Part shown: in pieces, positions 15,019 through 28,217 of the stretch
How the letters are laid out: the number at the start of each line of letters is the position of its first letter
How positions within the stretch are numbered: position 1 is the first letter of the stretch
Position numbers and translations under genes: made by a program
Notes under the pieces: model-generated
Told to the model about the DNA's origin: nothing
What the model saw: the letters and a program-made list of their open reading frames with translations, nothing else
The model's database searches: none
Source: Arcobacter roscoffensis
GTDB lineage: Bacteria > Campylobacterota > Campylobacteria > Campylobacterales > Arcobacteraceae
Length of the DNA stretch: 64,000 nt
Reading direction: 5' to 3'
Assembly (NCBI RefSeq): GCF_024267655.1
Contig: NZ_CP100595.1
Coordinates: forward strand, 868,001 to 932,000

Positions 15019-16080
15019 ATGATAAAAAGATACCCAACAAAACAAATAAAAGTAGGAAATGTACTAGTTGGTGGTGATGCACCAATTCCAGTACAATCAA
15101 TGACATTTACAAAAACAAGTGATGTTGCTGCAACAGTAGAGCAAATAAGAGCTTTACACTTTGCAGGAGCTGATATTGTAAGAGTTGCAGTGCCTGATAT
15201 GGATGCTGCTAATGCTTTGAAAGATATAAAAAGTCAAGTTGATTTACCTTTAGTTGCAGATATACATTTTAAATATAAACTAGCATTAAAAGCAGCAGAG
15301 GTAGTTGACTGTATTAGAATTAATCCAGGAAATATAGGTGATAAGAAAAGAGTAGCGGAGGTTGTGAAAGCTTGTCAAGAAAGACAAATTCCTATTAGAA
15401 TTGGAGTTAATTCAGGTTCACTTGAAAAACAATTTGAAGATAAATATGGTCAAACACCTGAGGGAATGGTAGCAAGTGCTGATTATAATATCAAGTATTT
15501 AGAAGATTTAGGTTTTACAGATTTAAAAGTATCTCTAAAAGCTAGTGATGTTCAAAGAACAGTTCAAGCTTATAGAATGTTAAGACCTATGAATAATTAT
15601 GCTTTTCATTTAGGTGTTACAGAAGCTGGAACACAGTTCCACTCTACTATAAAATCTTCAATAGCCTTAGGTTCACTTCTACTTGATGGTATAGGTGATA
15701 CTTTAAGAGTTTCTATGACAGGTGAGTTAGAAGAGGAAATTAAAGTAGGAAAAGCAATCTTAAAAGATGTAGGAATTGCAAAAGAGGGATTAAATATCGT
15801 ATCTTGTCCTACTTGTGGAAGAATTGAAGCTGATTTAGTAAGTGCAGTTGCAGAGATTGAGAAAAGAACAAATCATATTAAAACTCCTTTAGATGTTTCT
15901 GTTATGGGATGTGTTGTAAATGCAATTGGTGAGGCTAAAAGTGCTGACGTTGCTATTGCTTTTGGAAAAGGAAGTGGTTTAGTTATGAAAAGAGGTGAAA
16001 TTCTTGCTAGGCTAAAAGGTGATGAACTTATAAATAAGTTTGTTGAAGAAGTAGAACTTGAAGCACAAAAAAGAAAATAA
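15019..16080 (+). CDS. ispG: 4-hydroxy-3-methylbut-2-en-1-yl diphosphate synthase (flavodoxin)
   Basis: IspG is the iron-sulfur reductase that makes HMBPP in the MEP isoprenoid pathway, which ultimately also supplies undecaprenyl phosphate. The cluster cysteines are visible in [13 protein letters not shown] and [12 protein letters not shown] near the C-terminus. The N-terminal TIM barrel begins with [14 protein letters not shown]. It is 353 residues long, the usual size. The stop codon overlaps the dnaB ATG by one base. Confidence 0.97.
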
Positions 16081-18554
16081 TGGATAGTGTATATAGTATA
16101 AATATAGAAAGAGCTGTATTAAGTTCTATTTTATTTAATCCAGATGAGTTAGAAGAGATTTTAGGGGTTTTAAAAGCAAAAGACTTTTATCTTCCTGCTC
16201 ATCAAAAAATTTATGAAGTTATGATTAAACTTCATGAAGAAGATATGCCTATTGATGAAGAGTTTATTAGAAAAAGACTTGATCAAAAGGAAGTTGATGA
16301 TTCTATTTTAATAGAAATACTTTCAGCAAACCCAATCACAAATACAATTGCTTATGTAAGAGAAATAAAAGATGGTTCAATAAAAAGAGAGCTATCAACT
16401 CTAGCAACTACTATTAAAAAAGTAGCAATCGAAGAAGAAATACCTGCAAATGATGCTTTAGATACTATCCAAGGTGAGTTATATAAAATCTCAACAGATA
16501 GTGCTACAACAGAACTAAAAGATATGGAACATATCACAAGTGACACTCTTTCATATATAAAAAGAATGAAAGAACTTGGGAATACACACTTAATAGGTGA
16601 AACAACAGGTTTTGATGCACTAGATAGAAGAACAACAGGACTAAATGAAGGTGATTTAGTAATCATCGCTGCTAGGCCTGCGATGGGTAAGTGTTTAGCA
16701 AAAGGCACAAAAGTTTTAATGTATGATGGTTCTTTAAAAAATGTAGAAGATGTAAAAGTTGGAGATAAGTTAATGGGAGATGATTCTCATCCTCGAAATG
16801 TACTTTCAACTACAACTGGTAAAGAACAAATGTATTGGGTTCGACAGAATAAAGGAATTGATTATAGAGTTAATGAATCTCATATATTATCTTTAAAAAG
16901 AAGTCGTACAGAAGGACCACATAAAAATGGTGATATTTTAAATATAAATGTAAAAGAGTATTTAGAAAAAAGCGATAAGTTTAAAAGTAACTATAAAGGT
17001 TATAAAGTTCCAGTTGATTTTAAAGAGAATGATACTGTTTTAGATCCATATTTCTTAGGTTTATGGTTAGGTGATGGAGCAAGTAGAAAGCCAGCTATTT
17101 ATACAGAAGACAAAGAGATTATAGATTATTTAGATTTTTATGCAAAAAGTTTAAACTTAAAATTGAAAGAATATATAGCAGAGGGTAAATGCCCTGAGTA
17201 TTCAATAAGAAATGAGGGTAAAGTAGATGGCAAAACAACTTTTTCTTTAGAAGGACTTTTGAGAAAAGAAAACTTGCTTGAAAATAAACATATCCCTAAA
17301 AACTATTTAATTAATTCAAAACAAAAAAGATTAGAACTTTTAGCTGGACTTTTAGATAGTGATGGTCATTATGACAAAGCTGCTAATGGCTTTGAAATAA
17401 CTCAAAAAGATGAGTCTTTAGCAAAAGATATTAAGTTTTTATGTGATTCTTTGGGATTTAGAACTTCTCTTATTGAAAAAGAAGCATCAATAAAAGATAT
17501 TGACTATAAATGTCAAGTTTTTAGAGTAAGAATATTTGGAAATATTGATATTATTCCTACAAAAATTGAAAGAAAAAAAGCTAAAGAGTGGACTTGCAAT
17601 AGAACATGGAATCAAACAGGAATAACTATCGAAAAAGATATAGTTGATGATTACTATGGTTTTGAGATAGATGGTAATAAACTATTCCTTTTAGAAGATA
17701 TGACAGTTACTCATAATACTGCCGTTGTTTTAAATATGGCTTTAGCTAATGTTGAAGCTAATAGAGGTGTGATTTTTTTCTCACTTGAAATGCCTGCAGA
17801 GCAACTAATGCTTAGAATGCTTGCAGCTAAAACTTCTATTCCTTTACAAAATTTAAGAAAAGGTGATTTAGATGATAATCAATGGTCAAATTTGAGTTCG
17901 GCTTTTGATGATTTAAATACTAAGAAACTTTTTGTTGATGATGGTGGTAGTATTAATATTAACCAATTAAGAGCAAGAGTACGTAAACTTGCACAAAATG
18001 ATGATAATAATATTTCAATGGTTGTTATTGACTACTTGCAACTTATGCAAGGTACTGGAAATAAAGATAGACACCAAGAAGTTTCTGATATTTCAAGGGG
18101 TCTTAAAATGCTTGCAAGGGAAATGAAAATACCTATTGTTGCACTTTCTCAGTTAAATAGGGGACTTGAAAACAGGCCTGATAAAAGACCTATGTTATCA
18201 GACTTAAGAGAGTCTGGGGCTATTGAGCAGGATGCTGATATTATTATGTTTGTATATAGAGATGATGTATATAAACAAAGAGATGAAGCTAGAAAAGAAA
18301 AAGAAGCAAAAGATAAAGGTGAAGAATACAAATCTAATTTTGTTGATAAGCCAGTTGAGGAAGCAGAAATCATCATAGGTAAACAAAGAAATGGACCTAT
18401 TGGTACTGTAAAACTTGACTTCCATAAAGCCCTTACTAAGTTTGTGGATAAACCTGATGATAGTCATCACCATGGAGCACCTGTAGAAGTTGTATTTGAA
18501 AATGTAGCTGATACAGAAAAAGAGACAAACATGGATATGCCAGATATTTTATAA
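16080..18554 (+). CDS. dnaB: Replicative DNA helicase DnaB interrupted by an in-frame intein
   Basis: The 824-residue product is DnaB (about 482 residues after splicing) plus a 342-residue intein. The N-terminal DnaB domain (NIERAVLSSILFNPDELEEI) and the RecA-like helicase core are intact: FFSLEMPAEQLMLRM, VVIDYLQLMQG, LSQLNRGLENRPDKRP and EQDADIIMFVYRDD. The Walker A motif ARPAMGK-T is split between Lys204 and Thr547, so the helicase cannot bind ATP until the intein is removed. Start and reading frame are clear, with a one-base overlap with ispG. Splicing competence is inferred from intact terminal motifs. Confidence 0.96.
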   Translation: MDSVYSINIERAVLSSILFNPDELEEILGVLKAKDFYLPAHQKIYEVMIKLHEEDMPIDEEFIRKRLDQKEVDDSILIEILSANPITNTIAYVREIKDGSIKRELSTLATTIKKVAIEEEIPANDALDTIQGELYKISTDSATTELKDMEHITSDTLSYIKRMKELGNTHLIGETTGFDALDRRTTGLNEGDLVIIAARPAMGKCLAKGTKVLMYDGSLKNVEDVKVGDKLMGDDSHPRNVLSTTTGKEQMYWVRQNKGIDYRVNESHILSLKRSRTEGPHKNGDILNINVKEYLEKSDKFKSNYKGYKVPVDFKENDTVLDPYFLGLWLGDGASRKPAIYTEDKEIIDYLDFYAKSLNLKLKEYIAEGKCPEYSIRNEGKVDGKTTFSLEGLLRKENLLENKHIPKNYLINSKQKRLELLAGLLDSDGHYDKAANGFEITQKDESLAKDIKFLCDSLGFRTSLIEKEASIKDIDYKCQVFRVRIFGNIDIIPTKIERKKAKEWTCNRTWNQTGITIEKDIVDDYYGFEIDGNKLFLLEDMTVTHNTAVVLNMALANVEANRGVIFFSLEMPAEQLMLRMLAAKTSIPLQNLRKGDLDDNQWSNLSSAFDDLNTKKLFVDDGGSININQLRARVRKLAQNDDNNISMVVIDYLQLMQGTGNKDRHQEVSDISRGLKMLAREMKIPIVALSQLNRGLENRPDKRPMLSDLRESGAIEQDADIIMFVYRDDVYKQRDEARKEKEAKDKGEEYKSNFVDKPVEEAEIIIGKQRNGPIGTVKLDFHKALTKFVDKPDDSHHHGAPVEVVFENVADTEKETNMDMPDIL
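16692..17717 (+). mobile_element. LAGLIDADG-containing intein in the DnaB P-loop
   Basis: Residues 205-546 of the DnaB precursor. It begins with Cys205 (CLAKGTKVLMYDGS, splicing block A), contains a block B-like NESH, and ends with HN (VTHN, block G) before extein Thr547. Two endonuclease dodecapeptides are present: LGLWLGDGA with Asp332 and LAGLLDSDG with Asp428. Both acidic residues remain, so the homing endonuclease could be active. The block B position normally holding Thr is Asn here, a tolerated variation in some inteins. The in-frame open reading frame across the whole element argues for current function. Confidence 0.93.
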
Positions 18555-18640: not shown

Positions 18641-19048
18641 ATGAAAAATGGTTTTTCACTACTTGAATTAATATTTGCGATTTTAATCATAGGGATTATT
18701 GCCTCTGTTGCTGTACCAAAGTTTATTGACTCAAAAGATGAAGCTTTGGCTTCTACTATAAAAAGAGACATAGTAAGTGCTACTACAGCTATTCAAAGTT
18801 ATGCTATGCTTGATAGTAGTTTGACTAATATTGATACTGCTATAGTATTGAGCAAAACAAACTGGACAGTTACAGCAGGAAAAGCAGTTTTTAATGATGC
18901 TACTAATAAAGCTTGCATTACTATAGAAATCAAAGATGCAAGTAATGTAAAAAGTTTAGTTATTGATATTGATGAAACTTCAACTGATTCTGTTTGTGAA
19001 AAGTTGGAAGATGATTATGATATCGAAGATGTAACTTATAAATTATAA
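18641..19048 (+). CDS. Type II secretion/type IV pilin-like pseudopilin
   Basis: A 135-residue protein with a class III prepilin leader: the short MKNG stretch, then FSLLELIFAILIIGIIASVA with the conserved Glu at mature position 5. A prepilin peptidase would cleave after the Gly and methylate the Phe. The C-terminal domain has two cysteines (ACITIE and SVCEKL) that could form a disulfide, as in other pseudopilins. No assembly ATPase or secretin lies nearby, so it is an orphan minor pilin or pseudopilin. A strong terminator follows. Confidence 0.85.
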   Translation: MKNGFSLLELIFAILIIGIIASVAVPKFIDSKDEALASTIKRDIVSATTAIQSYAMLDSSLTNIDTAIVLSKTNWTVTAGKAVFNDATNKACITIEIKDASNVKSLVIDIDETSTDSVCEKLEDDYDIEDVTYKL

Positions 19049-19155: not shown

Positions 19156-19183
19156 ATCCCAAAAAATCATGAGGAATCTTTCA

Positions 19184-21805
19184 ATGAGGATTATATATAG
19201 TTTACTACTTGTATGTAGTGTGTTATTCTCCGCTACATTAACACCTACTCAATTAGAATTGGCTAAAGCTGCTGGCTACAGTGAAGCTGATATAAAAAAA
19301 GAGTTATCTAAAAAACAGAACACAGAAAACGAAGTTCAAAAAGAACAGAAGGTAGAAAATGATGTTGTTTTAGATGAAAAAGGTATTCAAAAAGAAGAGT
19401 TAAAATCAGAAGATAAAAAACTAGAAAGATTTGCTTCTCTATTTTTCAACAACAAAAATAAACTAAACCCATATAGTATTCCAACTCCATCAAATTATAG
19501 TTTAAATCATGGAGATAAAATATCACTTAAAATCTACGGTGGAACAAATGAAGATTTTGTTTTAGATGTAAATAAAGATGGTAATATAAATATTCCTCAA
19601 GTAAAAGAGCTTAAAGTAATAGGTCTAAATTTTCAAGAAGCAAAAAAGCTTATCAAAGAAGAGACTAAAAAAGCTTACCCAAATAGTACAAATATTTTAG
19701 TTGATATATCAGAATTCTCATCTATTCAAGTTACTATTTCAGGACTTGTAAATGCTCCTGGTCTTTATAACCTTTCTTCTTTTTCTACTATAAAAGATGC
19801 ACTTATTTCAAGTGGAGGTATTTTAGAAAATGGTTCATATAGAAATATCCTACTTAAAAGAGCAGGTAAGGTGTATAAGTCATTTGATTTATATTCACTT
19901 GTAAGATATGGTGATGCAAGTAGTGATACCATTTTAAAAAATGGTGACATTATTTTAGTTAAACCTATTAGTAAAGAGATTAAGCTTACAGGTGATGTAA
20001 ACTACAATGCAATTTTTGAACTTAAAAAAGGCGAAAGTTTTAGGACACTATTTAACTTTGCAGCTGGTTTTAAAGCAAAAGCAAACCAAAATGCAATAAG
20101 TCTTAAAAGATATGAAAATGATACTATAAAAGTATATACATTAAGTAAAGAAAAACTATATAAATTTACTCCAAAAAATGGAGATGAAATCAATGTATAT
20201 TCTACAAGTATTTTAGGTGCAAACCTAGTAAAAATTTCAGGAAATATCGTAGCACCAAGTGAAAAAGAACTTCCCTCTGATAAAAAGCTTTCAACACTTC
20301 TTCAAAATGAATTAAATCAGTTTGGAGAAAATGGATACTTTAAAAAAGATACAAATTATAACTTTGCAGTTATTAAAAATGACAATAATATCAAAAGTTT
20401 CAATCTTCAAAAAGTACTAGATAAAAAAGAAGATCATATTATCAAAGCAGGTGATATTATCACTATTTACAAAAATTCAGATTTAAAAGAAAAACCTTAT
20501 ATTTATGCAAAAGGTGAAGTAGTAGATAATAGTAAAAGAAAATATGAATTTTATGAAGGTATGAGTGTATCTGATCTTTTTGGACTTGTGAAGTTTAATA
20601 GTGAAGTATTTGATGATGAAGTGCGAAAATCTGTAAGAGTGGATAAAACAAAAGTTCAAATTACAAGACTTGATAATAATCAAAAATCAACATTTTTAGT
20701 AAACTTAAGTGAAAACAAAAACTTTAAACTTAAGAAATATGATGAAGTAAGATTCTTTGATTTCTCCGCTGTAAATGATAAAATGACAGCAATCATAAAA
20801 GGTGAAGTATTTATCCCTGGAACTTATGACATAAATGAAAATACAACTATAAATGACATAGTAAATATATCAGGTGGACTTACAAAAAAAGCTTTAAAAG
20901 CTAGATTTGAGGTTGTTAGATACTATACAGAAGACTATGAGAGAAAAAGAAAAGTCTTAGCTTTAGATATGAACAAAGCATTAAACTTAAAAATAAAAAT
21001 CTTCTCAGATGATGAAATCACTATCTTCCCAATAGCAAACTGGAATGATAAAAAATATGTAAATATCAAAGGACTAGTTAGATACCCAGGTAAATACGCA
21101 ATAGAAGAGGGTGAAAAACTATCAAGTGTGATTTTAAGAGCTGGTGGTTTCTTGCCAAATGCCTTTGTGGAAGGTGCTGTATTTACAAGAGAAGAGGTTA
21201 GAGAACTTCAAGAAAAAAGACTTCAAGAAACACTTGATAGACTTGGGAATCAAGTACTGAAAGCAAGCACTTCAAGTGAGAATTTAGGTGAAGAAAAAGA
21301 TGAAACAGCAAAAAAACTTCAAGCTATAAAACAGCTAGAAAATGAAGCAAAAAGAAATAAACCTATAGGAAGAGTATCTTTAAATCTATATTATGATCTA
21401 AATAGATTTAAAAAATCACCTTATGATATAGCACTAAAAGATGAAGATACTTTATATATTCCATCAATTAGTGATACGGTATCTGTTGTAGGTGAGGTTT
21501 TAAATCAAAATACCTTTGTATTTAATGATGACTTAAATACTGATGATTATTTATCAAAAGCAGGTGGTGTAACTGAGCTTGCAAATGAAGATTATATATA
21601 CATAGTAAAAGCAAATGGTGAAACAGTAAAATATGAGTCAAGCTACTTTTGGGGTAATGACAAAGAGATATTCAAAGGTGATACAATAGTTGTACCTATG
21701 GAGTTTGATATGTTCTCTGATATGAAGTTTGCAAAAGATGTATCAAGTATACTTTATCAGTTTGCTATTACAGCGGCTTCTCTTAAAACTGTAGGTGGTA
21801 TATAG
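19184..21805 (+). CDS. Polysaccharide export protein with multiple SLBB domains (Wza-like)
   Basis: An 873-residue secreted protein. After a signal peptide (MRIIYSLLLVCSVLFSA) come a Lys/Glu-rich linker and a polysaccharide export domain (SLNHGDKISLKIYGGTNEDF near residue 100). A series of SLBB repeats follows, each starting with a pattern like VTISGLVNAPGLYNL, AIIKGEVFIPGTYDI or VNIKGLVRYPGKYAI. Such proteins form the periplasmic and outer-membrane channel for capsule or exopolysaccharide. It is more than twice the length of Wza, as in the large multi-SLBB branch. I choose the second ATG because GAGGAA sits at proper spacing before it; an in-frame ATG at 19169 lacks a ribosome-binding site. 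No clear lipobox is visible. Confidence 0.88.
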   Translation: MRIIYSLLLVCSVLFSATLTPTQLELAKAAGYSEADIKKELSKKQNTENEVQKEQKVENDVVLDEKGIQKEELKSEDKKLERFASLFFNNKNKLNPYSIPTPSNYSLNHGDKISLKIYGGTNEDFVLDVNKDGNINIPQVKELKVIGLNFQEAKKLIKEETKKAYPNSTNILVDISEFSSIQVTISGLVNAPGLYNLSSFSTIKDALISSGGILENGSYRNILLKRAGKVYKSFDLYSLVRYGDASSDTILKNGDIILVKPISKEIKLTGDVNYNAIFELKKGESFRTLFNFAAGFKAKANQNAISLKRYENDTIKVYTLSKEKLYKFTPKNGDEINVYSTSILGANLVKISGNIVAPSEKELPSDKKLSTLLQNELNQFGENGYFKKDTNYNFAVIKNDNNIKSFNLQKVLDKKEDHIIKAGDIITIYKNSDLKEKPYIYAKGEVVDNSKRKYEFYEGMSVSDLFGLVKFNSEVFDDEVRKSVRVDKTKVQITRLDNNQKSTFLVNLSENKNFKLKKYDEVRFFDFSAVNDKMTAIIKGEVFIPGTYDINENTTINDIVNISGGLTKKALKARFEVVRYYTEDYERKRKVLALDMNKALNLKIKIFSDDEITIFPIANWNDKKYVNIKGLVRYPGKYAIEEGEKLSSVILRAGGFLPNAFVEGAVFTREEVRELQEKRLQETLDRLGNQVLKASTSSENLGEEKDETAKKLQAIKQLENEAKRNKPIGRVSLNLYYDLNRFKKSPYDIALKDEDTLYIPSISDTVSVVGEVLNQNTFVFNDDLNTDDYLSKAGGVTELANEDYIYIVKANGETVKYESSYFWGNDKEIFKGDTIVVPMEFDMFSDMKFAKDVSSILYQFAITAASLKTVGGI

Positions 21806-21806
21806 T

Positions 21807-22754
21807 ATGAGTGAAAAGCTTAGTGTAAATGAACAAGCTTCATATATAGAAGAAGATGAAATAGATTTAAGAGAGCTTTTTAATACTATCTTAAAATACA
21901 AATACAAGATACTATTATTTGTATTTGTGATTACAACTATTACTTTTGTGTATGTTTTAAGTATACCAAACTCATATAAGTCAAGTGTAGTTTTATCTCC
22001 TCAAAGTGAACAAAAATCAGTTGGAGGAGGTCTTTCATCTTTAGCTTCACTAGCTGGAGTTAGTCTTGGTGGTGGAAGTTCAAAAGATCCAGCTGTGATG
22101 ATGCAAACAGTACTAGGGGATTATAGTTTTAATGAAATGATGGTAGAAAAATACAATCTTACTTCAAAACTAGAAAATCAAGAAAATTTAGTTTTTGCTT
22201 TAGGTCTTGATAGTGTTTATAATATGTTTAATTCAAAAGATGAAGATGAACAAGATACTAGATCAAAAGAAGAAAAAGTATATTCGACTATAAATAGTTT
22301 GAAAGAAATTTTATCTGTTTCAGCTGATAAAAAATCTGGACTTATTACTTTAAGTGCTGAGCTTCAAGATAGATACTTAGCAAAAGAGCTTGTGGATATA
22401 TATCTAAAAGAAATAGTAGATAAAGTAAGAACTTCTGATATGAAAGAGATAGATGAACAAATCAAGTACTACAACAAAGAGTTAAGCTCAACATATGATG
22501 TATCATTAAAAGAACAACTTAGTAAATCTCTATCAGGTTTATATCAAAAGAAAGTGTTCTCACAAGCAAATGACTATTACTTTGTATCAAAAGTAGTAGA
22601 TAGTAGGGTCTCTTATATAAAAGAAAAGAGTAAACCAAAAAGAGCTTTAATACTTGTAGTTTCATTCGTAACTTCATTTATTCTTGGAATATTTTTAGTG
22701 TTTTTCTATGAGTTTATAAGAAGTGAAAAAACAGATGAACTTAAAAACTCTTAG
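21807..22754 (+). CDS. Wzz-type chain-length / polysaccharide co-polymerase
   Basis: A 315-residue inner-membrane protein with the Wzz layout. An acidic N-terminus with IDLRELFNTILKYKYKILL leads into the first helix (about 35-52), and a periplasmic domain includes a Gly-rich patch. A second helix (ALILVVSFVTSFILGIFLVF) lies near the C-terminus. There is no Walker motif or tyrosine tail, so no BY-kinase is fused. It would control chain length or gate export together with the SLBB protein, whose stop codon lies one base before this ATG. A GTG four codons upstream is a less likely start. Confidence 0.85.
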   Translation: MSEKLSVNEQASYIEEDEIDLRELFNTILKYKYKILLFVFVITTITFVYVLSIPNSYKSSVVLSPQSEQKSVGGGLSSLASLAGVSLGGGSSKDPAVMMQTVLGDYSFNEMMVEKYNLTSKLENQENLVFALGLDSVYNMFNSKDEDEQDTRSKEEKVYSTINSLKEILSVSADKKSGLITLSAELQDRYLAKELVDIYLKEIVDKVRTSDMKEIDEQIKYYNKELSSTYDVSLKEQLSKSLSGLYQKKVFSQANDYYFVSKVVDSRVSYIKEKSKPKRALILVVSFVTSFILGIFLVFFYEFIRSEKTDELKNS

Positions 22755-24870: not shown

Positions 24871-24901
24871 AATAAAATTTTTAAATTTAAAGATTTTATG
24901 G

Positions 24902-24907
24902 TAAAAT
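24902..24907 (+). promoter_or_regulatory. Candidate extended -10 box before the Ala/Gly-rich gene
   Basis: TAAAAT preceded by TGG forms an extended -10 lying 30 bases before the ATG, with AAAAAAAGGA as ribosome-binding site. The small gene may therefore be transcribed independently and at a higher level than the upstream export genes. Confidence 0.4.
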
Positions 24908-24937: not shown

Positions 24938-25285
24938 ATGAAAAAATTATTATCAATCGTTTTCGCTTCTTCTTTATTTGTAGCTAGTGCTGTAGCTCAA
25001 ACAGGTGCTGCTGGTTCAGGTGCTGCTGGTTCAGGTGCTGGAGGAGCAGGTGCTGCAGGTTCTGCTGGAGCAAGTGCAGGTGCAGGTGGAGCTGCCGGAG
25101 CTGGTGCTGCCGGAGCTGGTGCTGGTACTGTCGGAGCTGGAGCTGCTGCTGCTGGTGGAGCTGCCGCTGCTGGTGGAGCTGCAATTGGTGGAATTAGTGC
25201 TGCTACTGCTGCTGCCGCTGCTGCTGCTGCAGGTGTTGCTGCTGCTGTTGCTTCTGGTAACAACTCAACAACAACTCACCACTAA
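24938..25285 (+). CDS. Secreted Ala/Gly-rich small protein resembling YjbE
   Basis: A 115-residue protein made of a clear signal peptide (MKKLLSIVFASSLFVASAVA), a mature body that is almost entirely Ala, Gly and Ser, and a polar tail SGNNSTTTHH. E. coli YjbE, as I recall it, has the same plan: signal peptide, small-residue body, SNTG and Thr-rich tail. YjbE is encoded with YjbH, which lies directly upstream here. The biochemical role of YjbE-type proteins is not known to me. The gene contains three tandem repeats of 15-18 bases and is much richer in GC than its neighbours because of GCT/GGT codons. A terminator follows. Confidence 0.75.
   Translation: MKKLLSIVFASSLFVASAVAQTGAAGSGAAGSGAGGAGAAGSAGASAGAGGAAGAGAAGAGAGTVGAGAAAAGGAAAAGGAAIGGISAATAAAAAAAAGVAAAVASGNNSTTTHH
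25004..25033 (+). repeat. Tandem repeat, two exact 15-base units, in the Ala/Gly-rich gene
   Basis: The unit GGTGCTGCTGGTTCA occurs twice in a row and encodes GAAGS. It is a multiple of three, so slippage would change protein length without breaking the frame. Confidence 0.95.
25091..25120 (+). repeat. Second tandem repeat, two exact 15-base units
   Basis: The unit GCTGCCGGAGCTGGT occurs twice and encodes AAGAG. It is again in frame. Confidence 0.95.
25148..25183 (+). repeat. Third tandem repeat, two 18-base units differing at one base
   Basis: The units GCTGCTGGTGGAGCTGCC and GCTGCTGGTGGAGCTGCA differ only at the last position and encode AAGGAA twice. Confidence 0.95.
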
Positions 25286-25294
25286 TTAAAACTA

Positions 25295-25322
25295 TAGAAA
25301 CCCAATATTTCTTGGGTTTCTA
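25295..25322 (+). terminator. Hairpin terminator after the Ala/Gly-rich gene
   Basis: Eleven-base perfect arms (TAGAAACCCAA and its complement) close a six-base loop. The U-run is weak, but the stem is strong and lies just after the stop codon. It separates the export module from the sugar-nucleotide operon. Confidence 0.75.
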
Positions 25323-27694: not shown

Positions 27695-27898
27695 ATGAAA
27701 ACAATAAAATTAGAAATAGATGATTCTAAAATTGATATTGTTTTGAATATTATAGATAATCTTAAAGATGATGTTATTAGTAAATATGAAATTATAAGTG
27801 ATAAAAAGGAATCAAAAGATTTTATAGATATATCAGAAGAATCATTATATAAAATTTGGGAAAATGATGAGGATAGCGACTATGACAAGTTTTTGTAA
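27695..27898 (+). CDS. Putative antitoxin of a MazF-like toxin-antitoxin pair
   Basis: A small acidic 67-residue protein with no domain I recognise. The N-terminal half (MKTIKLEIDDSKIDIVLNII) could form a strand and helix of a dimerisation or DNA-binding unit. The C-terminal half is acidic (WENDEDSDYDKF), as expected for a tail wrapping a basic toxin. The call rests on position: the last 17 bases overlap the start of a MazF/PemK-type gene in another frame. Confidence 0.65.
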   Translation: MKTIKLEIDDSKIDIVLNIIDNLKDDVISKYEIISDKKESKDFIDISEESLYKIWENDEDSDYDKFL

Positions 27899-28217
27899 GT
27901 ATGATATTGTTGTAGTAAAGTTCCCATTTGCAAGTAGTTTGAAGTATAAAGCTAGACCTGCTGTTATAGTATCCTCAGATATTTATAATGAAAATAGTAG
28001 AAATACTCTTCTTATACTTGCTATTTCTAGTAGTATAGTAAATAAGCTTGACTTTGAAATTGAAGTTAAACTTTGGAAAGAATCTGGTCTATTAAAACCA
28101 TCAATTTTTAAATCATCAGTAGCAACTATAGAAAAAACATCAGTATTAAAGAAATTAGGTAAATTGAAAAAGGAAGATATAAATAGACTTGACTCATTTA
28201 TGAATATACTTTGTTAG
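27882..28217 (+). CDS. MazF/PemK-family endoribonuclease toxin
   Basis: A 111-residue protein of the MazF/PemK fold. FCKYDIVVVKFPFASSLKYKARPAVIVSSD holds the family's usual first strands and the conserved K-x-RP-A-V-I-V element; SRNTLLILAISSS follows, and KPSIFKSSVATIEK near the end resembles the conserved KPS segment. MazF enzymes cut mRNA at short sequences. I use the ATG at 27882 rather than 27864 because the family begins shortly before the first strand. The upstream small gene overlaps its start. Its insertion between galU and pgi interrupts an otherwise continuous sugar-nucleotide operon and suggests horizontal acquisition. Confidence 0.82.
   Translation: MTSFCKYDIVVVKFPFASSLKYKARPAVIVSSDIYNENSRNTLLILAISSSIVNKLDFEIEVKLWKESGLLKPSIFKSSVATIEKTSVLKKLGKLKKEDINRLDSFMNILC

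Follow-up and report, generated by a model that had tools for sequence, protein, structure and literature searches.

We report that the small gene at positions 24938-25285 of a 64,000-nucleotide stretch of the Arcobacter roscoffensis genome (the whole stretch analysed, referred to below as the window) encodes a secreted protein that is very probably a dedicated partner of the neighbouring YjbH, with a probability of about 0.85. That this partner serves in export or anchoring and is of the functional kind of Escherichia coli YjbE and GfcA, rather than a generic matrix protein, has in our judgement an even chance. Independently of the narrow Pfam YjbE model, a small protein whose C-terminal plan stays the same is found with YjbH in Campylobacterota, Alphaproteobacteria and Gammaproteobacteria, which suggests that it belongs to the machine. 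The YjbH companions form a scattered and largely unrecognised set, E. coli YjbE and GfcA among them.

The small gene and its locus

The source genome (3.15 Mb, a single contig) has relatives within the Arcobacteraceae that include Poseidonibacter and Aliarcobacter. The open reading frame of 115 residues, with an ATG start, lies where the original prediction had placed it, and related sequences were found (Table 1). The gene order in the window is OPX-Wzz-YjbH-small gene, the last of these beginning 67 nt downstream of yjbH. The yjbH neighbour claimed earlier was confirmed by a PF06082 match of 410.8 bits over the full length of the profile (positions 5-655 of 658). In its modelled secondary structure the window YjbH has two blocks of strands, 12 on the N-terminal and 13 on the C-terminal side, and a helix at the C-terminus; at a mean pLDDT of only 54, this would be in line with the published GfcD topology (an N-barrel of 12 strands, a middle domain in the periplasm and a C-barrel of 13 strands). 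The OPX protein carries a weak GfcC-like match at its C-terminus (18.5 bits against a cut-off of 20, and 13.9 bits in the L006 relative), which suggests, as far as the sequence goes, a fused GfcC module replacing a separate YjbG/GfcC. No YjbF gene was seen between 18.5 and 27.7 kb of the window. In the yjbEFGH and gfcABCD operons the small gene comes first, with YjbF/GfcB and YjbG/GfcC after it; the window locus does not have this order.

Table 1. Features of the yjbH locus, in positions of the window.
Feature	Positions	Strand	Basis and remarks
OPX polysaccharide export protein (Poly_export + SLBB)	19169..21805	+	sub-threshold GfcC-like C-terminus
Wzz-type chain-length protein	21795..22754	+	PF02706, E 7.7e-9
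YjbH/GfcD-family outer-membrane protein, 715 aa	22723..24870	+	PF06082, E = 1.8e-122
Extended -10 promoter element	24897..24907	+	30 nt upstream of ATG; kept in all 5 Arcobacteraceae loci
YjbE/GfcA-like small secreted protein	24938..25285	+	115 aa, ATG start, in-frame ORF; related sequences found
Sec signal peptide, residues 1-20	24938..24997	+	by eye; cleavage expected after ...ASAVA
Ala/Gly/Ser body, residues 21-85	24998..25192	+	low complexity, predicted disordered, differs between orthologs
15-bp in-frame tandem array, 4.1 copies	25002..25062	+	TRF
15-bp in-frame tandem array, 2.5 copies	25087..25124	+	TRF
18-bp in-frame imperfect tandem array, 5.9 copies	25138..25247	+	TRF
C-terminal weakly hydrophobic Ala/Gly/Val segment, residues 86-105	25193..25252	+	modelled helix 87-106, low confidence
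Polar turn and Ser/Thr/His tail SGNNSTTTHH, residues 106-115	25253..25282	+	sequence; equivalent tails in related proteins
3' hairpin, 11-bp stem	25295..25322	+	-14.4 kcal/mol, z -6.0

The secretion claimed for the product is supported by a predicted Sec signal of typical type, with cleavage between MKKLLSIVFASSLFVASAVA and Q; a crude signal-peptide predictor was also positive and set the site a few residues earlier than the one chosen by eye. In the AF2 model, helix 2-26 covers the signal region at a pLDDT of about 80, and the whole protein, at a pLDDT of 50, shows only this helix and a weak C-terminal one. The mature protein of 95 residues contains 44 Ala, 28 Gly, 7 Ser and 6 Thr (76% Ala+Gly) and no Lys, Arg, Asp or Glu.

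An extended -10 element (TATGGTAAAAT in the window, TATGNTATAAT in the relatives) lies 26-31 nt upstream of the ATG in all five related loci and matches at 9-10 of 10 positions, compared with a background frequency of about 1.7e-4 per base when sampled genome DNA was scanned equally stringently. This conservation supports the separate promoter that had been proposed for the small gene. Furthermore, the four relatives carry a hairpin at the same place just past the stop codon, built from unrelated stem sequences (z -3.0 to -6.0 over all five loci). The window hairpin has a weak U-tract, and a terminator scan flagged it on the minus strand only. From the conserved promoter element and the hairpin, we infer that the small gene is probably its own transcription unit. 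High expression, which had been deduced from the promoter, is unproven: the GCT codon bias of the window gene resembles that of ribosomal genes and is absent from the small genes of the relatives, so it may just reflect duplication of the repeats.

Companions of YjbH in Arcobacteraceae and beyond

Full-length YjbH (PF06082) was found in 6 of the 104 Arcobacteraceae genomes, the window's own counted. A profile search returned full-length homologs of the small protein (E < 1e-20; 4e-25 to 5e-22) in exactly five of the 104, all with yjbH, the next best match being partial (E 0.002). The profile was built from the same five proteins, and the informative part of this search is therefore that no full-length match occurs in the 98 genomes without yjbH. 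In the sixth yjbH genome the contig ends right after yjbH, leaving five testable loci, each with the small gene immediately downstream of yjbH. The relatives also keep Wzz, YjbH and the small protein in this order, preceded by an OPX gene. The association covers five species in four genera (Fisher 1e-8, a value that ignores phylogeny). Absence of the gene beside yjbH in relatives had been named as a possible refutation of the original prediction, and the gene was present at each testable locus. No companion was seen in the stretches read beside three distant YjbH-like proteins of Campylobacterota with partial PF06082 matches (G209, G349, G384), which limits the link to the full-length YjbH type. 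No YjbH relative was found in viral contigs.

By profile model the window protein lies outside the Pfam YjbE family. It matched nothing in Pfam and NCBIfam at E up to 1, including the YjbE model PF11106 (cut-off 27.9 bits), and this model found no place in the source genome at E up to 10; E. coli YjbE, as a control, scored 113.6 bits. Among the companions tested, no Pfam or NCBIfam model scored above its cut-off, and the sole weak YjbE match was that of Thalassococcus (E 0.022). By architecture and context, the protein is YjbE/GfcA-like. Thus the likeness to YjbE claimed originally holds for the architecture and for the co-occurrence with yjbH but not at the level of the Pfam YjbE model. Common descent with YjbE and GfcA is not proven by sequence scores, since low-complexity sequence defeats homology statistics, and the likeness may have arisen by convergence.

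The window protein, E. coli YjbE and GfcA and plasmid-encoded proteins of Rhodobacterales share a common plan, namely a signal peptide, a variable body, one C-terminal segment, a turn and a tail. The segment is rich in Gly, Ala and Val, weakly hydrophobic and of marginal predicted membrane-insertion energy; the short turn of Asn, Asp, Gly and Ser is followed by a Ser/Thr-rich tail with few positive charges. E. coli YjbE (PF11106, the first gene of yjbEFGH) is likewise a small protein with a Sec signal, an Ala/Ser/Gly-rich body, a weakly hydrophobic segment and an end of the same plan (GGGDGSN turn, TTTTTTTSTQ tail), encoded together with YjbH in an exopolysaccharide locus. In contrast to yjbE, the window gene follows yjbH, has its own promoter and no YjbF gene beside it, and encodes a body that is Ala/Gly-repetitive and uncharged. 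GfcA of the E. coli group 4 capsule operon, which is required for the capsule and encoded together with the YjbH paralog GfcD, has the signal, variable body, Gly/Ala/Val-rich segment, polar turn and Thr tail; it differs in its Thr-rich body and in being the first of a seven-gene operon that includes GfcB and GfcC. Like the window protein, GfcA is unmatched by the Pfam YjbE model. The Rhodobacterales plasmid companions, annotated only as hypothetical proteins (e.g. Tritonibacter L090:8974-9255 and Leisingera L091:8901-9164), show the same C-terminal plan beside yjbH/yjbF, but they usually lie after yjbF and have longer Thr runs and an acidic turn (NDDDE). The best bridge between the window protein and the other companions, judged from sequence, is provided by the Tritonibacter orthologs, which have an Ala/Gly-rich body like that of the window protein and tails ranging from NDSESGSTTED to NDDEDTTTTTTTN.

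We formulated this plan as an architecture filter (Sec signal, a single C-terminal hydrophobic uncharged segment, a short polar Ser/Thr-rich tail), whose thresholds were set by eye after viewing a first set of loci and which was then applied to ten held-out loci. The window protein passes this filter, as do YjbE and GfcA, and in the first set matches occurred at yjbH/gfcD loci only. Of the held-out yjbH plasmid loci, seven of ten had a companion within 6 kb, one of them (L098) from the same species as the earlier locus L023 and hence not independent. The filter returned nothing from a background of 1,845 ORFs on about 0.67 Mb: 440 kb came from the source genome, 120 kb from two relatives, 59 kb from the surroundings of distant YjbH-like genes and 50 kb from a high-GC plasmid. 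It detected no companion at the held-out loci L092, L094 and L096 or at the alphaproteobacterial loci L024, L025, L027 and L030 of the first set, nor in the wider flanks of L030 and L096. At such loci YjbH may work without a companion, or the companion may be encoded elsewhere.

These counts bear on the possibility that a secreted low-complexity protein lies next to yjbH by chance or without any relation to it. Such an origin is compatible with the result that Pfam and NCBIfam gave no match at E up to 1 and with the unreliability of homology scores for low-complexity sequence, yet it would have to account for co-occurrence at 5/5 loci from four genera, where promoter position and 3' hairpin are conserved too, and for 7/10 positive held-out loci in another phylum against zero background matches. 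We consider it highly improbable.

Two arrangements on plasmids are of separate note. Marinibacterium anthonyi carries two tandem YjbE/GfcA-like genes beside yjbH (L097:8401-9149), and plasmid p4 of Tritonibacter mobilis A3R06 has two yjbH loci, each with a different small companion (L089:5354-5665 and L102:336-617). An ORF after yjbH in L008, a Syntrophus-like MAG, begins Ala/Gly-rich but encodes 290 aa with an extra C-terminal region and was not counted.

Proposed role in polysaccharide export

Among multi-barrel outer-membrane proteins, YjbH/GfcD has been described as the largest group; GfcA, though needed for the capsule, has been called entirely uncharacterised (PMC11494523, PMC3853201). 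Deletion of gfcA in EPEC abolishes the capsule, as judged from buoyancy and staining, and a plasmid carrying gfcA alone brings it back (PMC3853201). PMC8592465 cites the finding that the buoyancy phenotype of the capsule is disrupted when any gfc gene is lost, and its authors suggested that GfcA may carry an O-antigen modification and be routed to GfcD. Because of the loss and restoration of the EPEC capsule, we prefer an export or anchoring partner over a passive matrix protein.

The original prediction had assigned a matrix, adhesin or pore-lining role to the Ala/Gly body. The emphasis on the body is unsupported, since in companions elsewhere it is swapped for Thr-rich (GfcA), Pro-rich (Marinibacterium) and acidic (Phaeobacter) stretches; roles of this kind could still be played by the protein. 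In its most explicit form, this idea would make the product a secreted matrix or silk-like protein, exported by YjbH or by its FapF-like N-barrel, whose GAGAGS-like stretches self-assemble and reinforce the exopolysaccharide. The composition of the body, which we take to be close to that of fibroin-type repeats, was counted in its favour, as were the 12 N-terminal strands of the low-confidence YjbH model. The N-terminal half of GfcD/YjbH has moreover been reported by fold recognition to resemble the amyloid exporter FapF (PMC9603273), and the window locus resembles FapF/FapC amyloid export in having a small secreted low-complexity protein that adjoins such a barrel. The partner genes in the window, however, form a polysaccharide locus. 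A matrix protein is also hard to reconcile with an Ala/Gly body that is not conserved among the companions, and with the fact that gfcA loss removes the capsule itself instead of merely weakening a matrix. We regard this role as rather improbable.

The pattern of change, in which the body with its repeats varies most and the C-terminal segment and tail are kept, argues for the Ala/Gly body as a spacer and for a C-terminus that does the work. The mechanism that we prefer for an export or anchoring partner, tentatively and with at best an even chance of being right, is that of a Sec-exported protein whose segment and hydroxyl-rich tail are handled by YjbH, with the polymer kept on the cell. The small protein would be exported by Sec and then released into the periplasm, because its segment is only marginally hydrophobic and lacks the positive charge for an inner-membrane hold. 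YjbH would recognise the segment and the tail and bring the protein to the outer membrane or the surface, possibly via the lateral gate which has been proposed, for lipid-anchored polysaccharide, in the second (C-terminal) of the two barrels modelled for GfcD (PMC11494523). There the hydrophobic segment would anchor the protein and the tail would hold or carry the exported polysaccharide, the body acting as a replaceable spacer; the polymer would be exported and still be cell-associated. Against this proposal stands the annotation of GfcA as an inner-membrane protein. The window protein also has a short Ser/Thr tail (S, S, T, T, T), and the G017 tail, SSSNDSNHSH, has no Thr, so glycan attachment to Thr is not a strict requirement. 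The region to mutate would be the C-terminal segment with its tail, not the eye-catching Ala/Gly body.

Alternatively, the protein could be an assembly or gating subunit, its C-terminal segment docking in or beside YjbH or OPX as a plug or pore-lining helix that opens or stabilises the exporter and carries no polymer. The strict linkage to yjbH, the single weakly hydrophobic, glycine-spaced segment and the capsule loss upon gfcA deletion all fit such a subunit, and an own promoter would permit its excess stoichiometry. A gating function leaves the recurring Ser/Thr tail and the freely variable body unexplained, and GfcD models already contain a C-terminal plug of their own (PMC11494523). On balance this possibility appears unlikely.

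YjbE, GfcA and the window protein might even form a single class of proteins, shared across phyla, that anchor exopolysaccharide: the Ser/Thr tail would be loaded with polymer in the periplasm, the conjugate would leave via YjbH and the segment would be freed through the lateral gate. This generalisation is speculative and we consider it improbable; if true, a protein and not a lipid would fasten the polysaccharide to the outer membrane.

Repeats, length variation and further genes of the window

Three in-frame tandem repeats of 15, 15 and 18 bases had been noticed in the small gene, and TRF bore them out. The longest exact periodic run, 24 nt with period 15, exceeds that in codon-shuffled versions of the gene (p = 0.005; for period 15 alone, 0/2000 shuffles reach the observed run) and that in protein-preserving synonymous shuffles (p = 0.02; for period 15, p = 0.004). 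The DNA is thus somewhat more repetitive than the biased composition would yield. The length variation between strains that had been predicted from these repeats could be checked for E. coli yjbE and Tritonibacter mobilis, and there it found no support. In a checked E. coli strain with a longer locus, YjbE is unchanged at 80 aa and the extra 73 bp are intergenic; the companions of two T. mobilis strains are identical in length (93 aa each), and gfcA spans showed no length change among the sampled rows of full coverage. Variation was seen between species only: the small proteins of the five Arcobacteraceae measure 93, 95, 98, 115 and 119 aa, and the differences fall in the body.

Several other genes of the window deserve mention. 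A pseudopilin-like protein is encoded just upstream of the OPX gene (18641-19048, N_methyl 2.4e-5). Within the polysaccharide locus lies a PemK/MazF-like toxin gene (27864-28217, PF02452 4.4e-15), and the ORF starting near 27697, just upstream of it, could encode the antitoxin. Finally, the DnaB replicative helicase gene (16080-18554) is interrupted in frame by an intein, which includes a homing endonuclease (Hom_end_hint 2.5e-21, Hom_end 1.3e-12, LAGLIDADG_3 2.8e-9).
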